Shown piece by piece: positions 3,324 to 8,850 of a stretch of DNA of 64,000 nucleotides (positions are counted from its first letter, which is position 1; every line of letters starts with the position of its first letter). The notes under the pieces were generated by a model. That model did no database searches. It was not told where the DNA came from and was given only the letters and a program-made list of their open reading frames with translations. Source of the stretch: Engelhardtia mirabilis (GTDB taxonomy: Bacteria > Planctomycetota > UBA1135 > GCA-002686595); contig CP036296.1 of NCBI GenBank assembly GCA_007751255.1, forward strand, positions 6,324,001-6,388,000. Direction: 5' to 3'. The position numbers and the translations under genes were made by a program.

Positions 3324-6092
3324 TCAGCTCGAGGTGCCTGCCACGAGGGCCGTCCACTCGTCCTTGGTGATCAGGATGTCCCGGCGCTTGCCGCCCAGGT
3401 AGGGCCCGATCAGGCCGCGTTGCTGGAGCTCGTCGAGGATCGCGGTGGAGGTCTTGAAGTCGAGCTCGTAGCGCTTCTGCAGCATCGACACGGCCACGCG
3501 CCCCTCGTCGAGGAACATGCAGCCGGCCTCGTAGACCAGCTTGTCGTGGTCGGAGCCGAAGTCGATCGGCTGGCTCGGCAGGGAGGTGCGGGCGGCGGGC
3601 TCGAGCACGACGTCGGCCGATTCGGCGGCTGCTGCGACCGCCGGCTGCTTCGTCTTCGGAGCGGCAGCGGCCTCAACTACCGGAGCGTCGGCCGACTCGG
3701 CGTCGGCCTCCTTGTCGGCCTTCGCGCTGGCCTTGGCTTTCGAAGAAGTCTTCACCTTCGGTTCGGACTTGGCCTTGGCCTTGGGTTCAGCCTTGGGCTT
3801 GGATTCCGCAGTCGCCTTGGGCTCAACCTTGGACTTCGGCTCGACCTTCGCCTTGCCCTTGTCAGGTGCCTTGGCCTCGGGCTCGGCCTTCGCTTCGGCC
3901 TCGTTTGCGCCCTCGGTGACTCCGGTGGCGGCCGGCGCCTGGACGTCGGAGGCGACATCCTCGACAGGCAGCGCTGCGGGCGCGGTCTCGACCACCGGCT
4001 CCGGGTCGATGGCCTGCGAAGCGACATGTGTAGCGACAGGTTCCGGCTCGACGCTCGCTCGAGGGTCGGACTCGCTCTCGTCGGACGACTTTGACCCTGC
4101 CTTGGCGGTCGCCTTCGACTTGCCCTTCGACTGGGCCTTCGACTGGGAGCCGGCCTTTGCCGCCGGCTGGGGAGTCGCCTCTGCCACGGCTTCGTCAGCA
4201 GGCTCGTGGACCACGCCGGACTCGTCCAGCTCGGAGAACAGCCCGCGCTGGGCGGGCCCCGAGGCGTGGGCGCGGACGACTTCACCCTCGGCTTGCGCCT
4301 CGGAGGTCGTGACCTCCGTGGGCACCTTGGCCGTGCTCTTGCCGGTGTTGCCGCCCTTGTTCTTGGCGCCGCCCTTCGACTCCGCAGCGGGCTGCTCGGC
4401 GACGAGTTCTTCGGAGTCCGTGGCTACAGCCTCGTCCTCTTCGTCCTCGTACTCCCACTCGCCGTCGTCCTCTTCGTCCTCTTCCTCGTCGTCGTCCTCG
4501 GCGTAGACCTCTTCGGCCTCGTCTTCCTCCCACTCCTCGTCGTCTTCGTCCTCTTCGTCGCCCTCGGCGACGACCTCATCGTCGTCGTCTTCTTCGACCC
4601 ACTCCCACTCCTCGTCGTCTTCGTCGTCCTCTTCCTCACCCTCATCGAGCTCGGCGACGGCGTCCTCGTCCTCTTCTTCTTCGTCCCACTCCTCGTCGTC
4701 GTCCTCGCTCTGGACGGCGGCCGGGGGCGTGGTGACCTCGTCCTCCTCGGACTCTTCCTCGTCCTCGAGCTCCTCACCGGCGGCGAGGGCTTCGGCGGCC
4801 TCGTCCCAGTCGTCCTCGTCGCCGTCGAGTTCCTCCTCGGCGTCCGGCAGCTTCGCGGCGAAGCCGCCCGGGTCGGCCTCCGTGGCCGCCGACAGGGCGT
4901 CATCGACTGCGTCCTCGCGCGCCTGCGCCGCGGCGGCCTCTTGCGCGGCCAGCAGCTCGCCGACGGTCGGGGGTGCGACGTCGGCTGCGGCCGGCTCCGC
5001 CTTCGTCGAGTCCTCGACCCGACGCATCGGCCGCACGTTCCCCACGCTGCCCTCGTCCGGCGCTACGACGACCGCGTCCGGCTCGGAAGGAGCATCGGTC
5101 TTGGATCGCCCGCTCCCCGCGCCGGTCAGGTCGACGGGTTGCTCGGACGTCGCCGCCGCGGCGGCCGCTGCGGCTGCGGCGGATCCGAACGGACGAACGC
5201 CGGCCCCCATATCCGTTGCAGCGGGCTGGCCGGACCGGTCAGGTCCACCGCCGGCGCCTTCGAGGGGTCGCGCCACGTGAGGCGCGGGAGTTTTGGTTCT
5301 TGGTTCTGCACGTTCTTGGGTCCCGGGCTTCGGGACCGCTTTGGAAGCCGGGGAGGATGCCGACATCGGTCGGACCCCGGGGGTGTTCACGCCGGTGGAA
5401 TCCGAAGAGGTCTTGCTCTCGGGAACGGCCTCGACGGCCGCACCGGACTTCGCTGCGCTAGGCGACGCCTCGACCTCGATCCTCGGCTGCGCGCTGGGCT
5501 GCGGCTTGTCGCCGGCACCCTTGCGACGCCCCTTCGCCTGGATCGGCCTGGCTTCGCTCGGCGCGGAAGAAGTCCCGCGTTCCGTCTTGTCTACATCGCC
5601 GCGGACCCAAGGTTTCGCCCCCGGGGCCAGGCCGAAACCGACCGCCACCCCGTAAGCGCCTGCTGCGAAGGCGATTAGCCCCAGTGCCAAGCCCAGGACG
5701 ACGATCGCCGTTCCGCTCTCGGCGCCCACCAGGACGGCGCCCAGGGCGCCGCCGGCGGAGCCACCGGTCAGGGCTCCGAAACCCAGGCTGAGCCCCACGA
5801 GCAGAGCCGCTCCGCCCGCCGCCGTGGGCGCGGGCTTGACCCTTCGAGGGCTGACGAACAGCAGGGCGCCAAGCACCAAGAGCCCGATCGAGATCACCAG
5901 CAGGGGCCAATGCCCCGCCAGGCCGATCAAGCCCACGACCAGGCGGGTCAGCGGATTGAGGTTCTCGTCGGCGGTGCCCTGGAGCAGGCCGGCGACGGCC
6001 GAGGCCGCCACGAGGGTGCCGACGGCGAAGAGGGCCAGGCCCGCGTAGTCGCGCGCACCGAAGCGGGCGCGCCGTTCAGTTTGTTCAGTCAT
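3324..6092 (-). CDS. FtsK-like membrane protein without motor domain (membrane region, long acidic/basic linker, gamma-like winged helix)
   Basis: A 922-residue protein. Residues 15-155 hold four or so hydrophobic segments resembling the FtsK N-terminal membrane domain. Residues 160-415 are a low-complexity Pro/Ala/Ser linker with an 11-Ala run; 417-565 are almost entirely Asp/Glu with periodic Trp/Tyr; 640-800 are Lys/Ala/Glu/Pro repeats of the KAEPKAK type. Residues 845-920 (DKLVYEAGCMFLDEGRVAVS...GLIGPYLGGKRRDILI) match the FtsK gamma winged helix, which in FtsK binds KOPS DNA and XerD. There is no Walker A or B motif anywhere. The start codon lies inside the 3' end of ftsK (ATGACTGA), so translation is probably coupled. 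It looks like a paralogue that kept both ends of FtsK and lost the translocase. Function is inferred only: it could modulate FtsK or bind DNA at the division site. Confidence 0.82.
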   Translation of the reverse strand: MTEQTERRARFGARDYAGLALFAVGTLVAASAVAGLLQGTADENLNPLTRLVVGLIGLAGHWPLLVISIGLLVLGALLFVSPRRVKPAPTAAGGAALLVGLSLGFGALTGGSAGGALGAVLVGAESGTAIVVLGLALGLIAFAAGAYGVAVGFGLAPGAKPWVRGDVDKTERGTSSAPSEARPIQAKGRRKGAGDKPQPSAQPRIEVEASPSAAKSGAAVEAVPESKTSSDSTGVNTPGVRPMSASSPASKAVPKPGTQERAEPRTKTPAPHVARPLEGAGGGPDRSGQPAATDMGAGVRPFGSAAAAAAAAAATSEQPVDLTGAGSGRSKTDAPSEPDAVVVAPDEGSVGNVRPMRRVEDSTKAEPAAADVAPPTVGELLAAQEAAAAQAREDAVDDALSAATEADPGGFAAKLPDAEEELDGDEDDWDEAAEALAAGEELEDEEESEEDEVTTPPAAVQSEDDDEEWDEEEEDEDAVAELDEGEEEDDEDDEEWEWVEEDDDDEVVAEGDEEDEDDEEWEEDEAEEVYAEDDDEEEDEEDDGEWEYEDEEDEAVATDSEELVAEQPAAESKGGAKNKGGNTGKSTAKVPTEVTTSEAQAEGEVVRAHASGPAQRGLFSELDESGVVHEPADEAVAEATPQPAAKAGSQSKAQSKGKSKATAKAGSKSSDESESDPRASVEPEPVATHVASQAIDPEPVVETAPAALPVEDVASDVQAPAATGVTEGANEAEAKAEPEAKAPDKGKAKVEPKSKVEPKATAESKPKAEPKAKAKSEPKVKTSSKAKASAKADKEADAESADAPVVEAAAAPKTKQPAVAAAAESADVVLEPAARTSLPSQPIDFGSDHDKLVYEAGCMFLDEGRVAVSMLQKRYELDFKTSTAILDELQQRGLIGPYLGGKRRDILITKDEWTALVAGTSS

Positions 6093-8850
6093 CGTCGACT
6101 CCGGAGCCTGCGGCAGCGCCGTACATCTCTTCCCACTGCTCGAGGGTCAACAGGACCTCACTGGCCTTGCTGCCCTTGTGCGCGCCGACGACACCGTTGT
6201 CGCGCATCATGTCGATCAGTCTGCTGGCCCGGGTGTAGCCGATGCCCAGCGCGCGCTGGAGCAGGCTTGCCGAACCACGCTTGCTCTTGAGGATCACGCG
6301 CACCGCGTCGTCCCACAGGTCGTCCTGCTCGGACGGATCCTTGTCGGCCAGGGTCTCCGACCGCGACCCGCTGGCGGCCTGGATCAGCTCCTGGCTGAAG
6401 GTCGGCGCCGACTCCTGCTCCACGAAGTCCACGATCGCCTGCAGCTCGTGGTCCTCGACCAGCGCGCCCTGCACCCGCTTGAGCGAGGAGGACTGCGGCG
6501 GGTTGTAGAGCATGTCGCCCTGACCGAGCAGCTTCTCGGCGCCCATGGCGTCCAGGATCACGCGGCTGTCGATCTTGCTGGCCACGGTGAAGGCGATGCG
6601 CGTGGGCAGGTTGGCCTTCAGAACACCAGTGATCACGTCCGTGGAGGGGCGCTGGGTGGCCACGATCACGTGGATGCCGACCGCGCGCGACTTCTGCGCC
6701 AGGCGCGTGATGGCCTGCTCGGCCTCCTTCTTCGAGATCATCATCAGGTCGGCCATCTCGTCGATGATGATCACGATGTAGGGCACGTGGCGCGGGGTGC
6801 GCTCCTCGTTGAAGTCGTCGCCCATGCGCTCCTTCAACTTGTCCTCGCCCAGGGCGTTGTAGCCCTTGATGTTGCGTACGCCGGCGTTCTTGAAGAGGTC
6901 GTAGCGCCCCTCCATCTTCTCGACGGCCCACAACAGCACGTTGGTCGCGTGCTTCATGTCCGTGACCACCGGACACATCTGGTGCGGCACGTTCGAGTAC
7001 ATCGCCAGCTCGACCATCTTGGGGTCGACCATGATCATCTGCACCTCGTGTGGGGTGCGGGTCAGCAGCAGGCTGGCGATGATCGTGTTGATGCAGACGG
7101 ACTTGCCGGCGCCGGTCTGACCCGCGATCAAGAGGTGCGGCATGCGCGCCAGGTCCTCGACGATCGGGTTGCCCTCGGCGTCCATGCCCAGGAACAGCGG
7201 GAGCGCCGCGAACTTGGGATCGTAGGCCTCCTTGCAGATCAGCTCGCTGAAGCGCACCAGGCGCCGCGCACCGTTGGGCACCTCGATGCCGATCGTCGAG
7301 CGGCCGGGGATCGGCGCGATGATCCGCACCGAGCGGGCCTTGAGCGCGGCGGCGATCTCCGAGCTGAGGGTCGTCACGCGGTTCATGCGCGTGCCCTGGG
7401 CCACCTCGAGCTCGAACATGGTCACGGACGGGCCGATGGTCGAGCCGACCACGTTGGCCTCGACGCGGAAGGAGCGCAGGGCGTTCTCGAGCTTCTCGGC
7501 CTGGGCCTCGATCTTGCCGCGGGCCTCCTCGGTCACGCCGGAGTTGACCGAAGGCGGCTCGAGCAGGTCGAGGGGCGGGAACTTCCACGGGCCCGGGGGC
7601 GGCGTCGGCGGATCGAAGGGCAGGGAGATCGGCGCGTTGAAGGTGGGCTTCTTCTTGGGCAGGGCCGCCGCGGGGACGATCGGCTCGACCTCATCGGCGT
7701 CGGCCTCTTCCTCGTCCTCGTACTCCCACTCCTCGTCCTCGTCCCAGGCCTCGTCGCCGTCTTCTTCCTCCCACTCCTCGTCCTCGTCGCCTTCCTCCCA
7801 CTCCTCGTCGTCCGAGGCCGCGGGCTCCTCGTCCCACTCCTCCTCGGCGCCTTCCTCTTCCCACTCGCCCTCTTCGTCGTCCTCGTACTCTTCGAACAGC
7901 TCGGGCTGGGCCTCTTCCTCGGCCTTCTTCTTGGAGGTCTTCTTCGGGGTGGTCTTGGTGGCCTTGGCCTTGGCCTTGGCCGCAGCCGCCGGCGGGGCCT
8001 GGGGCTCGAGTTCGAGATCGGCCCCGCGCAGGAAGTCCCACCAACCGCGCAGGGTGCGACCCGCGAAGCCCTTGACCGCGGCCCCGGCGCCCTCGCCCTG
8101 GCTCTCGCGGCGCTCACCGAGCCAGTCCAGCAGCGCACGAATTGACGGGTAGAAGGTGCGCTCGGTGGCCAGCAGGAACGAGCTGAGCGAGATCCCGAGC
8201 AGCAGGATCCACAGGCCCGGCCGGCCGAACTTGGCGATCAGCACCGCCGGAGCGTCGGCCGAGTGGTTCTCGCTGGGGCCGATCAGCTCCCGCGCCAGCC
8301 AGCCGCCGGGGCCGTAGGGCAGGTTCGACGAGCCGCCGGCCAGCATCCGCTCGTGGAAGCCCTCACCCAGGGAGAGCTGCAGCAGCAGGGCCGTCGAGAA
8401 CAGGAAGCAGAGCGTCCCGAAGACCCGCAGCAGGGGCCACCAGACCTCCCGGCCGGAGACCAGCACGGCCCCCCAGGCGATGCCCAGGGCCACGCACAGG
8501 TACCCCGCCAGACCCAGGGCGACCAGCACCCACGACGCCAGGTAGAAGCCGAGTTGCCCGCCCCAGTTGACCCCCGAGTAGGCCGCGCCGCTGGCGTCGC
8601 TGTAGGGCTGGTGGAAGCTGAACAGGGCGATCCCGAGCCAGACCGCGAATCCGATCAGGAGCAGGGCCCCGATCTCGCGCAGGTGCCCGTGGGTCTCCTC
8701 GTCGTCGGCCCCGGCGACCAAGCCGCCGACGAGCTGGCCGATGCGCCCCAGGGCCACGCGAATGCGCCCCGGACCGGGCGCAGCACCGCGCTTGGCCTTG
8801 GACTTGGCCTTGCCCTTCTTGGATGTCGACTTGGAGGCAGCGCGTGCCAT
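6085..8850 (-). CDS. ftsK: DNA translocase FtsK
   Basis: A 921-residue septal DNA pump that clears and resolves chromosome termini at division. From the chosen ATG (MARAASKSTSKKGK) there is a basic N-terminus, four membrane segments between about residues 58 and 228, a Lys/Ala stretch (290-310), and a strongly acidic linker (about 315-390). The motor follows: alpha domain from about 435, Walker A GQTGAGKS at 577-584, and Walker B IIIDE ending at 698. The gamma winged helix is at about 843-905 (LLQRALGIGYTRASRLIDMM). All catalytic motifs are intact. The ORF is open 72 bases further upstream but those residues look non-coding. It overlaps the motorless paralogue downstream by 8 bases. Identification is firm; the acidic linker is longer and more biased than is usual. 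Confidence 0.96.
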   Translation of the reverse strand: MARAASKSTSKKGKAKSKAKRGAAPGPGRIRVALGRIGQLVGGLVAGADDEETHGHLREIGALLLIGFAVWLGIALFSFHQPYSDASGAAYSGVNWGGQLGFYLASWVLVALGLAGYLCVALGIAWGAVLVSGREVWWPLLRVFGTLCFLFSTALLLQLSLGEGFHERMLAGGSSNLPYGPGGWLARELIGPSENHSADAPAVLIAKFGRPGLWILLLGISLSSFLLATERTFYPSIRALLDWLGERRESQGEGAGAAVKGFAGRTLRGWWDFLRGADLELEPQAPPAAAAKAKAKATKTTPKKTSKKKAEEEAQPELFEEYEDDEEGEWEEEGAEEEWDEEPAASDDEEWEEGDEDEEWEEEDGDEAWDEDEEWEYEDEEEADADEVEPIVPAAALPKKKPTFNAPISLPFDPPTPPPGPWKFPPLDLLEPPSVNSGVTEEARGKIEAQAEKLENALRSFRVEANVVGSTIGPSVTMFELEVAQGTRMNRVTTLSSEIAAALKARSVRIIAPIPGRSTIGIEVPNGARRLVRFSELICKEAYDPKFAALPLFLGMDAEGNPIVEDLARMPHLLIAGQTGAGKSVCINTIIASLLLTRTPHEVQMIMVDPKMVELAMYSNVPHQMCPVVTDMKHATNVLLWAVEKMEGRYDLFKNAGVRNIKGYNALGEDKLKERMGDDFNEERTPRHVPYIVIIIDEMADLMMISKKEAEQAITRLAQKSRAVGIHVIVATQRPSTDVITGVLKANLPTRIAFTVASKIDSRVILDAMGAEKLLGQGDMLYNPPQSSSLKRVQGALVEDHELQAIVDFVEQESAPTFSQELIQAASGSRSETLADKDPSEQDDLWDDAVRVILKSKRGSASLLQRALGIGYTRASRLIDMMRDNGVVGAHKGSKASEVLLTLEQWEEMYGAAAGSGVDDD

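Follow-up and report, generated by a model that had tools for sequence, protein, structure and literature searches.

The ftsK locus and its second gene

The window analysed here is a stretch of 64,000 nucleotides of Engelhardtia mirabilis (contig CP036296.1, positions 6,324,001 to 6,388,000), and all positions given below are those of the window. Its minus strand carries ftsK and, directly downstream, a gene coding for a protein that is hereafter called the paralogue (Table 1). The two genes have eight nucleotides in common, and the start codon of the second lies inside ftsK, in agreement with the original prediction.

Table 1. Features of the ftsK region, in window positions.
Feature	Positions	Strand	Evidence or remark
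Motorless FtsK paralogue, 922 aa	3324-6092	-	Open reading frame; Pfam gamma only; homologous genes in relatives
ftsK, 921 aa from ATG	6085-8850	-	Pfam 4TM, alpha, motor and gamma
Overlap, ftsK end / paralogue start, 8 nt	6085-6092	-	ATG at 6092 inside ftsK
FtsK motor domain, PF01580	6643-7212	-	204 bits
4TM domain of FtsK, PF13491	8287-8685	-	44.9 bits
Gamma domain of FtsK itself	6148-6330	-	84.1 bits; R1300 kept
Paralogue membrane domain, 4TM of FtsK type (residues 15-155, approximately)	5628-6050	-	Hydrophobic segments; profile-profile match
Linker of the paralogue, long, low-complexity, about residues 160-845	3558-5615	-	Abundant Ala, Lys, Glu and Asp
Gamma' winged helix of the paralogue, PF09397, residues 848-909	3366-3551	-	48.7 bits (genome profile search); 43.4 bits (Pfam)

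A Pfam scan of the 922-residue protein gives FtsK_gamma alone, with 43.4 bits for a cut-off of 30.6; the C-terminal domain (gamma') is thus of the predicted type. Pfam scans reveal no PF01580 motor in the paralogue nor in 20 further ones, and a search for Walker A and B motifs in the window paralogue was negative, as had been announced. Among the 34 paralogues of the order to which the window belongs, GxxxxGK(S/T) is matched twice, both times within the gamma wing. At the level of the whole genome, Pfam profile searches give one FtsK motor over the cut-off, i.e., that of ftsK, and two gamma matches, i.e., those of FtsK and of the paralogue.

The lengths of 922 (open reading frame) and 921 residues (ftsK from its ATG) are correct. 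Their near identity was considered as a meaningful trait; this was rejected, since other pairs differ widely (e.g., 662 vs. 896 residues, open frames), and it looks like a coincidence. The overlap itself recurs. Linked pairs of family f1 number 17 besides that of the window, of which 16 are readable (G014 has unread bases). In 10 of these 16 an ATG creates the 8-nt overlap seen in the window, and the nearest start of the remaining six ranges from a 4-nt overlap to about 44 nt downstream.

The paralogue and FtsK have in common an N-terminal 4TM domain, a long linker and a C-terminal gamma domain, in the same order. They differ in that FtsK has alpha and motor domains and the paralogue neither. 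It must be noticed that the paralogue does not replace a complete FtsK but accompanies one. The translocases of the FtsK family, SpoIIIE and SftA among them, are its relatives and contain gamma domains; none of them is known to lack the ATPase motor, which the paralogue does not have.

Membrane domain, linker and gamma' domain

Four hydrophobic segments are found in the paralogue (residues 19-37, 63-81, 90-108 and 128-146). The resemblance of this region to the FtsK membrane domain, which the original prediction had put forward, stands by profile-profile comparison but escapes the Pfam model (PF13491), which does not match the window protein. The profile of 30 paralogue N-termini, that of the window included, matches the profile of 32 FtsK 4TM domains with 98.0% probability (E 2.2e-13); G013, G014, G021 and G023 have no readable N-terminus and are absent from it, and G040p was cut by hand. 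The f1 N-termini alone (n=18) reach 94.1% and the other 12 reach 99.0%, while the controls, i.e., FtsK profiles read in reverse or with their columns shuffled (six times), remain at or below 0.36%. Moreover, four of the 20 scanned homologues (G037, G043, G091 and G159) pass the Pfam 4TM cut-off; gamma is seen in all 20, three times below the gathering score, and a motor in none. By the profile-profile match and these four homologues, the N-terminus is of the FtsK 4TM type. The predicted structure of the domain is a poor model (pLDDT 55). The N-terminal region of the FtsKs of family f5 (L064-L067, n=4) contains five hydrophobic segments, not four.

The linker of the paralogue contains 25% of Asp plus Glu, and 76% in its densest 50 residues; acidic linkers are found in many members of the family. 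By eye, very acidic linkers with repeated stretches resembling DEEW or EEWEYEDEE are seen in the window paralogue and in the window FtsK (about 4413-4835 and about 7681-7893, minus strand). Two approximate motifs, GVSxAEAxxL and DVRxxGxIP, are each present in 15 of the 18 paralogues of family f1 whose linker is complete, at about 25-110 residues past the fourth helix (L033-L049, L068). None was found in the 65 FtsKs scanned, in the other families scanned or in the window paralogue. They are possible partner-binding sites; being absent from the window paralogue, they are not used for its mechanism below.

The AlphaFold2 model of gamma' (two rows) has a mean pLDDT of 80. In a Foldseek search its first PDB hit is the gamma domain of E. 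coli FtsK (2j5p, E 1.9e-3; none reaches E 0.001), and the KOPS-bound chains of 2ve9 align to the model with a target TM of 0.83-0.85. Other winged helices score nearly alike, and a ROK repressor equally; thus the fold alone is no proof of kinship, which is proved by the sequence profile.

The residues of gamma were compared using the numbering of E. coli FtsK, with the roles given in PMC2680272 and PMC5052618. The order set contains 34 FtsKs and 34 paralogues, which are not strictly paired: four FtsKs are from f5, without paralogue, and the paralogues of G002, G013, G021 and G023 are taken without their FtsK. Arg1300, without which E. coli FtsK does not recognise KOPS (PMC2680272), is present in 34/34 FtsKs vs. 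6/34 paralogues, and is replaced by Ala in that of the window. Arg1297 and Gly1294 are each kept in 34/34 FtsKs vs. 1/34 paralogues. Positions 1294-1306 carry a mean charge of +0.8 in FtsKs and −2.6 in paralogues (−3.3 in the 22 from f1), and several positions of the recognition helix of gamma' vary freely. Other positions are better kept: Gln1288 is found in all 34 FtsKs and in 31 paralogues, and position 1289 is Arg in all FtsKs and Arg or Lys in 33 paralogues (Lys in the window). Position 1303 is acidic in 34 FtsKs and 27 paralogues; the window paralogue has Asp, which is also the commonest residue in the FtsKs considered here (Glu1303 in E. coli). Glu1306, third of the residues used for KOPS in E. 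coli, is found in just 8 FtsKs and 6 paralogues and, being rare in both, is no evidence of a loss of KOPS residues.

The set from outside the order comprises 31 FtsKs and 33 paralogues; for three of the latter (G073, G110 and G117) the frame that was read is devoid of hydrophobic segments, and those of G073 and G117 are compared without their own FtsK. Position 1300 is Arg in 31/31 FtsKs and, among paralogues, Arg in 13/33 and Lys in 5/33. Arg1297 is kept in 31/31 and 14/33, respectively, and Arg or Lys at 1289 in 27/31 and 30/33. The mean charge of the recognition helix is +1.2 for FtsKs and +0.2 for paralogues. The loss of KOPS-reading positions in gamma' is thus strong within the order of the window and partial elsewhere.

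These values bear on two explanations. According to the original prediction, gamma' could compete for KOPS or guide FtsK, tuning its loading or direction. The common fold and the coupling to ftsK are consistent with this, as are the acidic position 1303 in 27 paralogues of the order and the gamma' of family f63, which keeps Tyr1295, Arg1297 and Arg1300. However, Arg1300, essential for KOPS in E. coli (PMC2680272), is mostly lost and the helix is acidic in the order of the window, thus such competition is unlikely there; outside the order more residues are kept. For these FtsKs, a KOPS-like target motif is itself an assumption carried over from E. coli. Overall, this explanation is considered improbable.

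According to the second explanation, the paralogue is a membrane-tethered DNA binder whose gamma' reads another motif, or DNA unspecifically, and keeps the chromosome anchored at the septum beside the pump. The winged helix of gamma' is genuinely of the gamma type, and positions 1288 and 1289 are kept in the order as described; outside it, the recognition helix is near neutral on average and position 1300 is Arg or Lys in 18/33, and DNA reading is thus possible there. On the contrary, the acidity and variability of the helix in the order of the window, and the acidic linkers of many members, argue against a DNA binder, which we regard as unlikely though less so than a KOPS competitor.

The conservation of position 1289 raises a third explanation, i.e., that the XerD-activating role of gamma has shifted to a separate motorless protein. 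Arg1289 is the central residue in the contact of gamma with E. coli XerD (PMC5052618), and Xer-type matches are present in 39 of 41 genomes (that of the window and 40 relatives), two of them over the XerD cut-off. Ten loci were looked at, of which three had no match to the search motif and seven were readable, XerC and XerD being unsorted; positions E183 and E184 were placed on the GEE stretch of the E. coli XerD sequence, so that their assignment is inferred. Glu is found at the E183 site in 3/7 sequences. On the contrary, the E184 site is Arg in 6/7 and Tyr in 1/7, the two sequences of the window genome included; Lys1289 of the window paralogue would thus face no Glu in any of the seven. The salt bridge of E. 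coli is missing there, even for the gamma domain of FtsK itself, and the XerD contact that the original prediction mentions is not transferable in its E. coli form. XerD docking, considered as best explanation for the kept Arg or Lys at 1289, was set back since its E184 partner is missing; a dedicated XerCD activator has a low probability. Residue 1289 may simply hold the DNA backbone or the fold.

Distribution, origin and selection

The genome of the window and 40 relatives were searched. Two gamma matches are found in 34 of these 41 genomes, one in five and none in two. In 28 of the 34 genomes with two matches, that of the window included, both lie at most 3 kb apart, on the same contig and strand. 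The pair is split at contig ends in G013, G021 and G023. Three genomes, G002 and the two of family f8 (G031 and G035), have the genes at separate places. The f5 genomes (n=4) have a single gamma and no paralogue; in two of them (G028 and G039) a rimO-like gene, named by eye, directly follows ftsK.

A sample of 391 genomes of the phylum was also searched for gamma matches. At least two are found in 34/35 f1 genomes, 13/28 other genomes of the order and 45/328 genomes outside it; the 15 other genomes of the order with one match are all f5. Outside the order, 35 of the 45 multi-gamma genomes were taken up (all but G050, G089, G096, G122, G133, G172, G253, G345, G396 and G403). They gave 28 linked pairs, which belong to 11 further families of the phylum. 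An FtsK-type Walker A is present in 0/28 of their second proteins; that of G091 contains GxxxxGKT but no Pfam motor. The second gene of several of these pairs begins farther from ftsK, more than 400 nt away in G176.

Some members depart from the common scheme. By a simple measure, f25 and two of the three f61 members have fewer than four hydrophobic segments, and those of the f61 member G168 are in unusual places. The f59 genomes G206 and G138 (L116, L117) have a second complete FtsK with Walker A and membrane segments; these proteins (G206p, G138p) are omitted from the paralogue counts. Two or three gamma matches in tandem are seen at G345:C28:1972-2430, G138:C209:49235-49672 and G050:C69:81323-82412; in G345 and G138 the spacing places both in one open frame.

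The tree of 132 gamma domains (74 columns) splits 67 paralogues from 65 FtsKs with two label changes. A constraint holding the paralogues together has a better likelihood (p-AU 0.68); a single ancient duplication is thus not rejected, though 74 columns are no proof of it. In the unsaturated comparison of G309 and G118, of the same genus, the paralogue has dN 0.071 and dS 0.328 over 397 codons (gamma being cut off in G118), and ftsK has dN 0.026 and dS 0.194. For gamma' of G286 and G309, dN is 0.085 and dS 0.61; other dS values are near saturation. The paralogue is under purifying selection, its linker and 4TM domain evolving faster than FtsK.

The faster evolution of these two parts and the absent motor could suggest a decaying, functionless ftsK duplicate. 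On the contrary, the conservation across many families, the purifying selection and a single ancient origin that is not rejected make this very improbable; a recent duplicate or pseudogene was rejected on the same grounds.

It can be concluded that the paralogue is a real and conserved FtsK-family architecture, with both end domains and coupled to ftsK as originally described. On the two points on which the prediction could have failed, i.e., the gamma match at its C-terminus and the recurrence of the pair in close relatives, it held; the mechanism proposed there finds support in part.

A probable motorless partner of FtsK in bacteria without FtsZ

FtsZ (PF00091) was found in none of the 41 genomes, i.e., the window's own and 40 relatives; the same search was positive in 13 of 14 control genomes. 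Literature on FtsK is pertinent to this setting. The N-terminal domain of E. coli FtsK hexamerises without the translocase (PMC3870252). In Chlamydia, which has no FtsZ, divisome assembly needs FtsK (PMC11975371). In P. limnophila ftsK is the only FtsK homologue and appeared essential, alone among four division genes tested (PMC6952346). Chlamydia trachomatis resembles the present case as an FtsZ-less PVC bacterium whose FtsK membrane protein has a scaffold role, but it has a complete FtsK and the accessible part of PMC11975371 mentions no motorless partner, unlike the window pair. FtsK is also discussed in work on how PVC bacteria divide, again with no motorless partner mentioned in its accessible part (PMC12283558). 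As the original prediction supposed, no description of a motorless FtsK paralogue was found in the titles and abstract beginnings of open-access literature.

Tuning or joining FtsK is the preferred class of explanation, and the paralogue is probably a working partner of FtsK. Within this class, the reading adopted here, to which we give an even chance, is that of a motorless membrane subunit of the FtsK assembly whose gamma' has been repurposed to dock another partner. Translational coupling would supply the paralogue alongside FtsK; at the division site, its 4TM domain would become part of the membrane assembly of FtsK or lie alongside it; gamma' would dock a protein of division or of the chromosome instead of reading KOPS; and a scaffold role of FtsK would be uncoupled from DNA pumping in bacteria lacking FtsZ. 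Co-assembly with FtsK is suggested by homology and gene order.

The subunit reading is favoured by: (i) the 4TM homology with its controls, and the four homologues having Pfam 4TM and gamma without motor; (ii) the gene overlap, the pair conserved in the order and in 11 other families, and the purifying selection; (iii) the contrast between FtsKs and paralogues at Arg1300 and in helix charge, together with the absence of FtsZ matches; (iv) the hexamerisation of the FtsK N-terminal domain and the data from Chlamydia and P. limnophila cited above. Several results count against it: (i) ftsK and the second gene lie far from each other in G002 and the f8 genomes, and f5 has no second gamma; (ii) Arg or Lys at 1300 outside the order makes DNA reading possible there; (iii) position 1303 is mostly acidic in the order, as E. 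coli FtsK needs for KOPS, and acidity is strongest in f1; (iv) the 4TM model is poor.

More tentatively, and with odds that we place well below even, in many FtsZ-less Planctomycetota the FtsK assembly of the division site might unite two subunits, one FtsK that pumps DNA and one that has no motor and a repurposed gamma, the second being a dedicated division scaffold that helps replace the missing Z-ring system. The paralogue is a natural experiment that detaches the membrane and gamma parts of FtsK from its motor. For planctomycete division without FtsZ, the conserved and coupled motorless FtsK found in species other than P. limnophila is a concrete candidate component.
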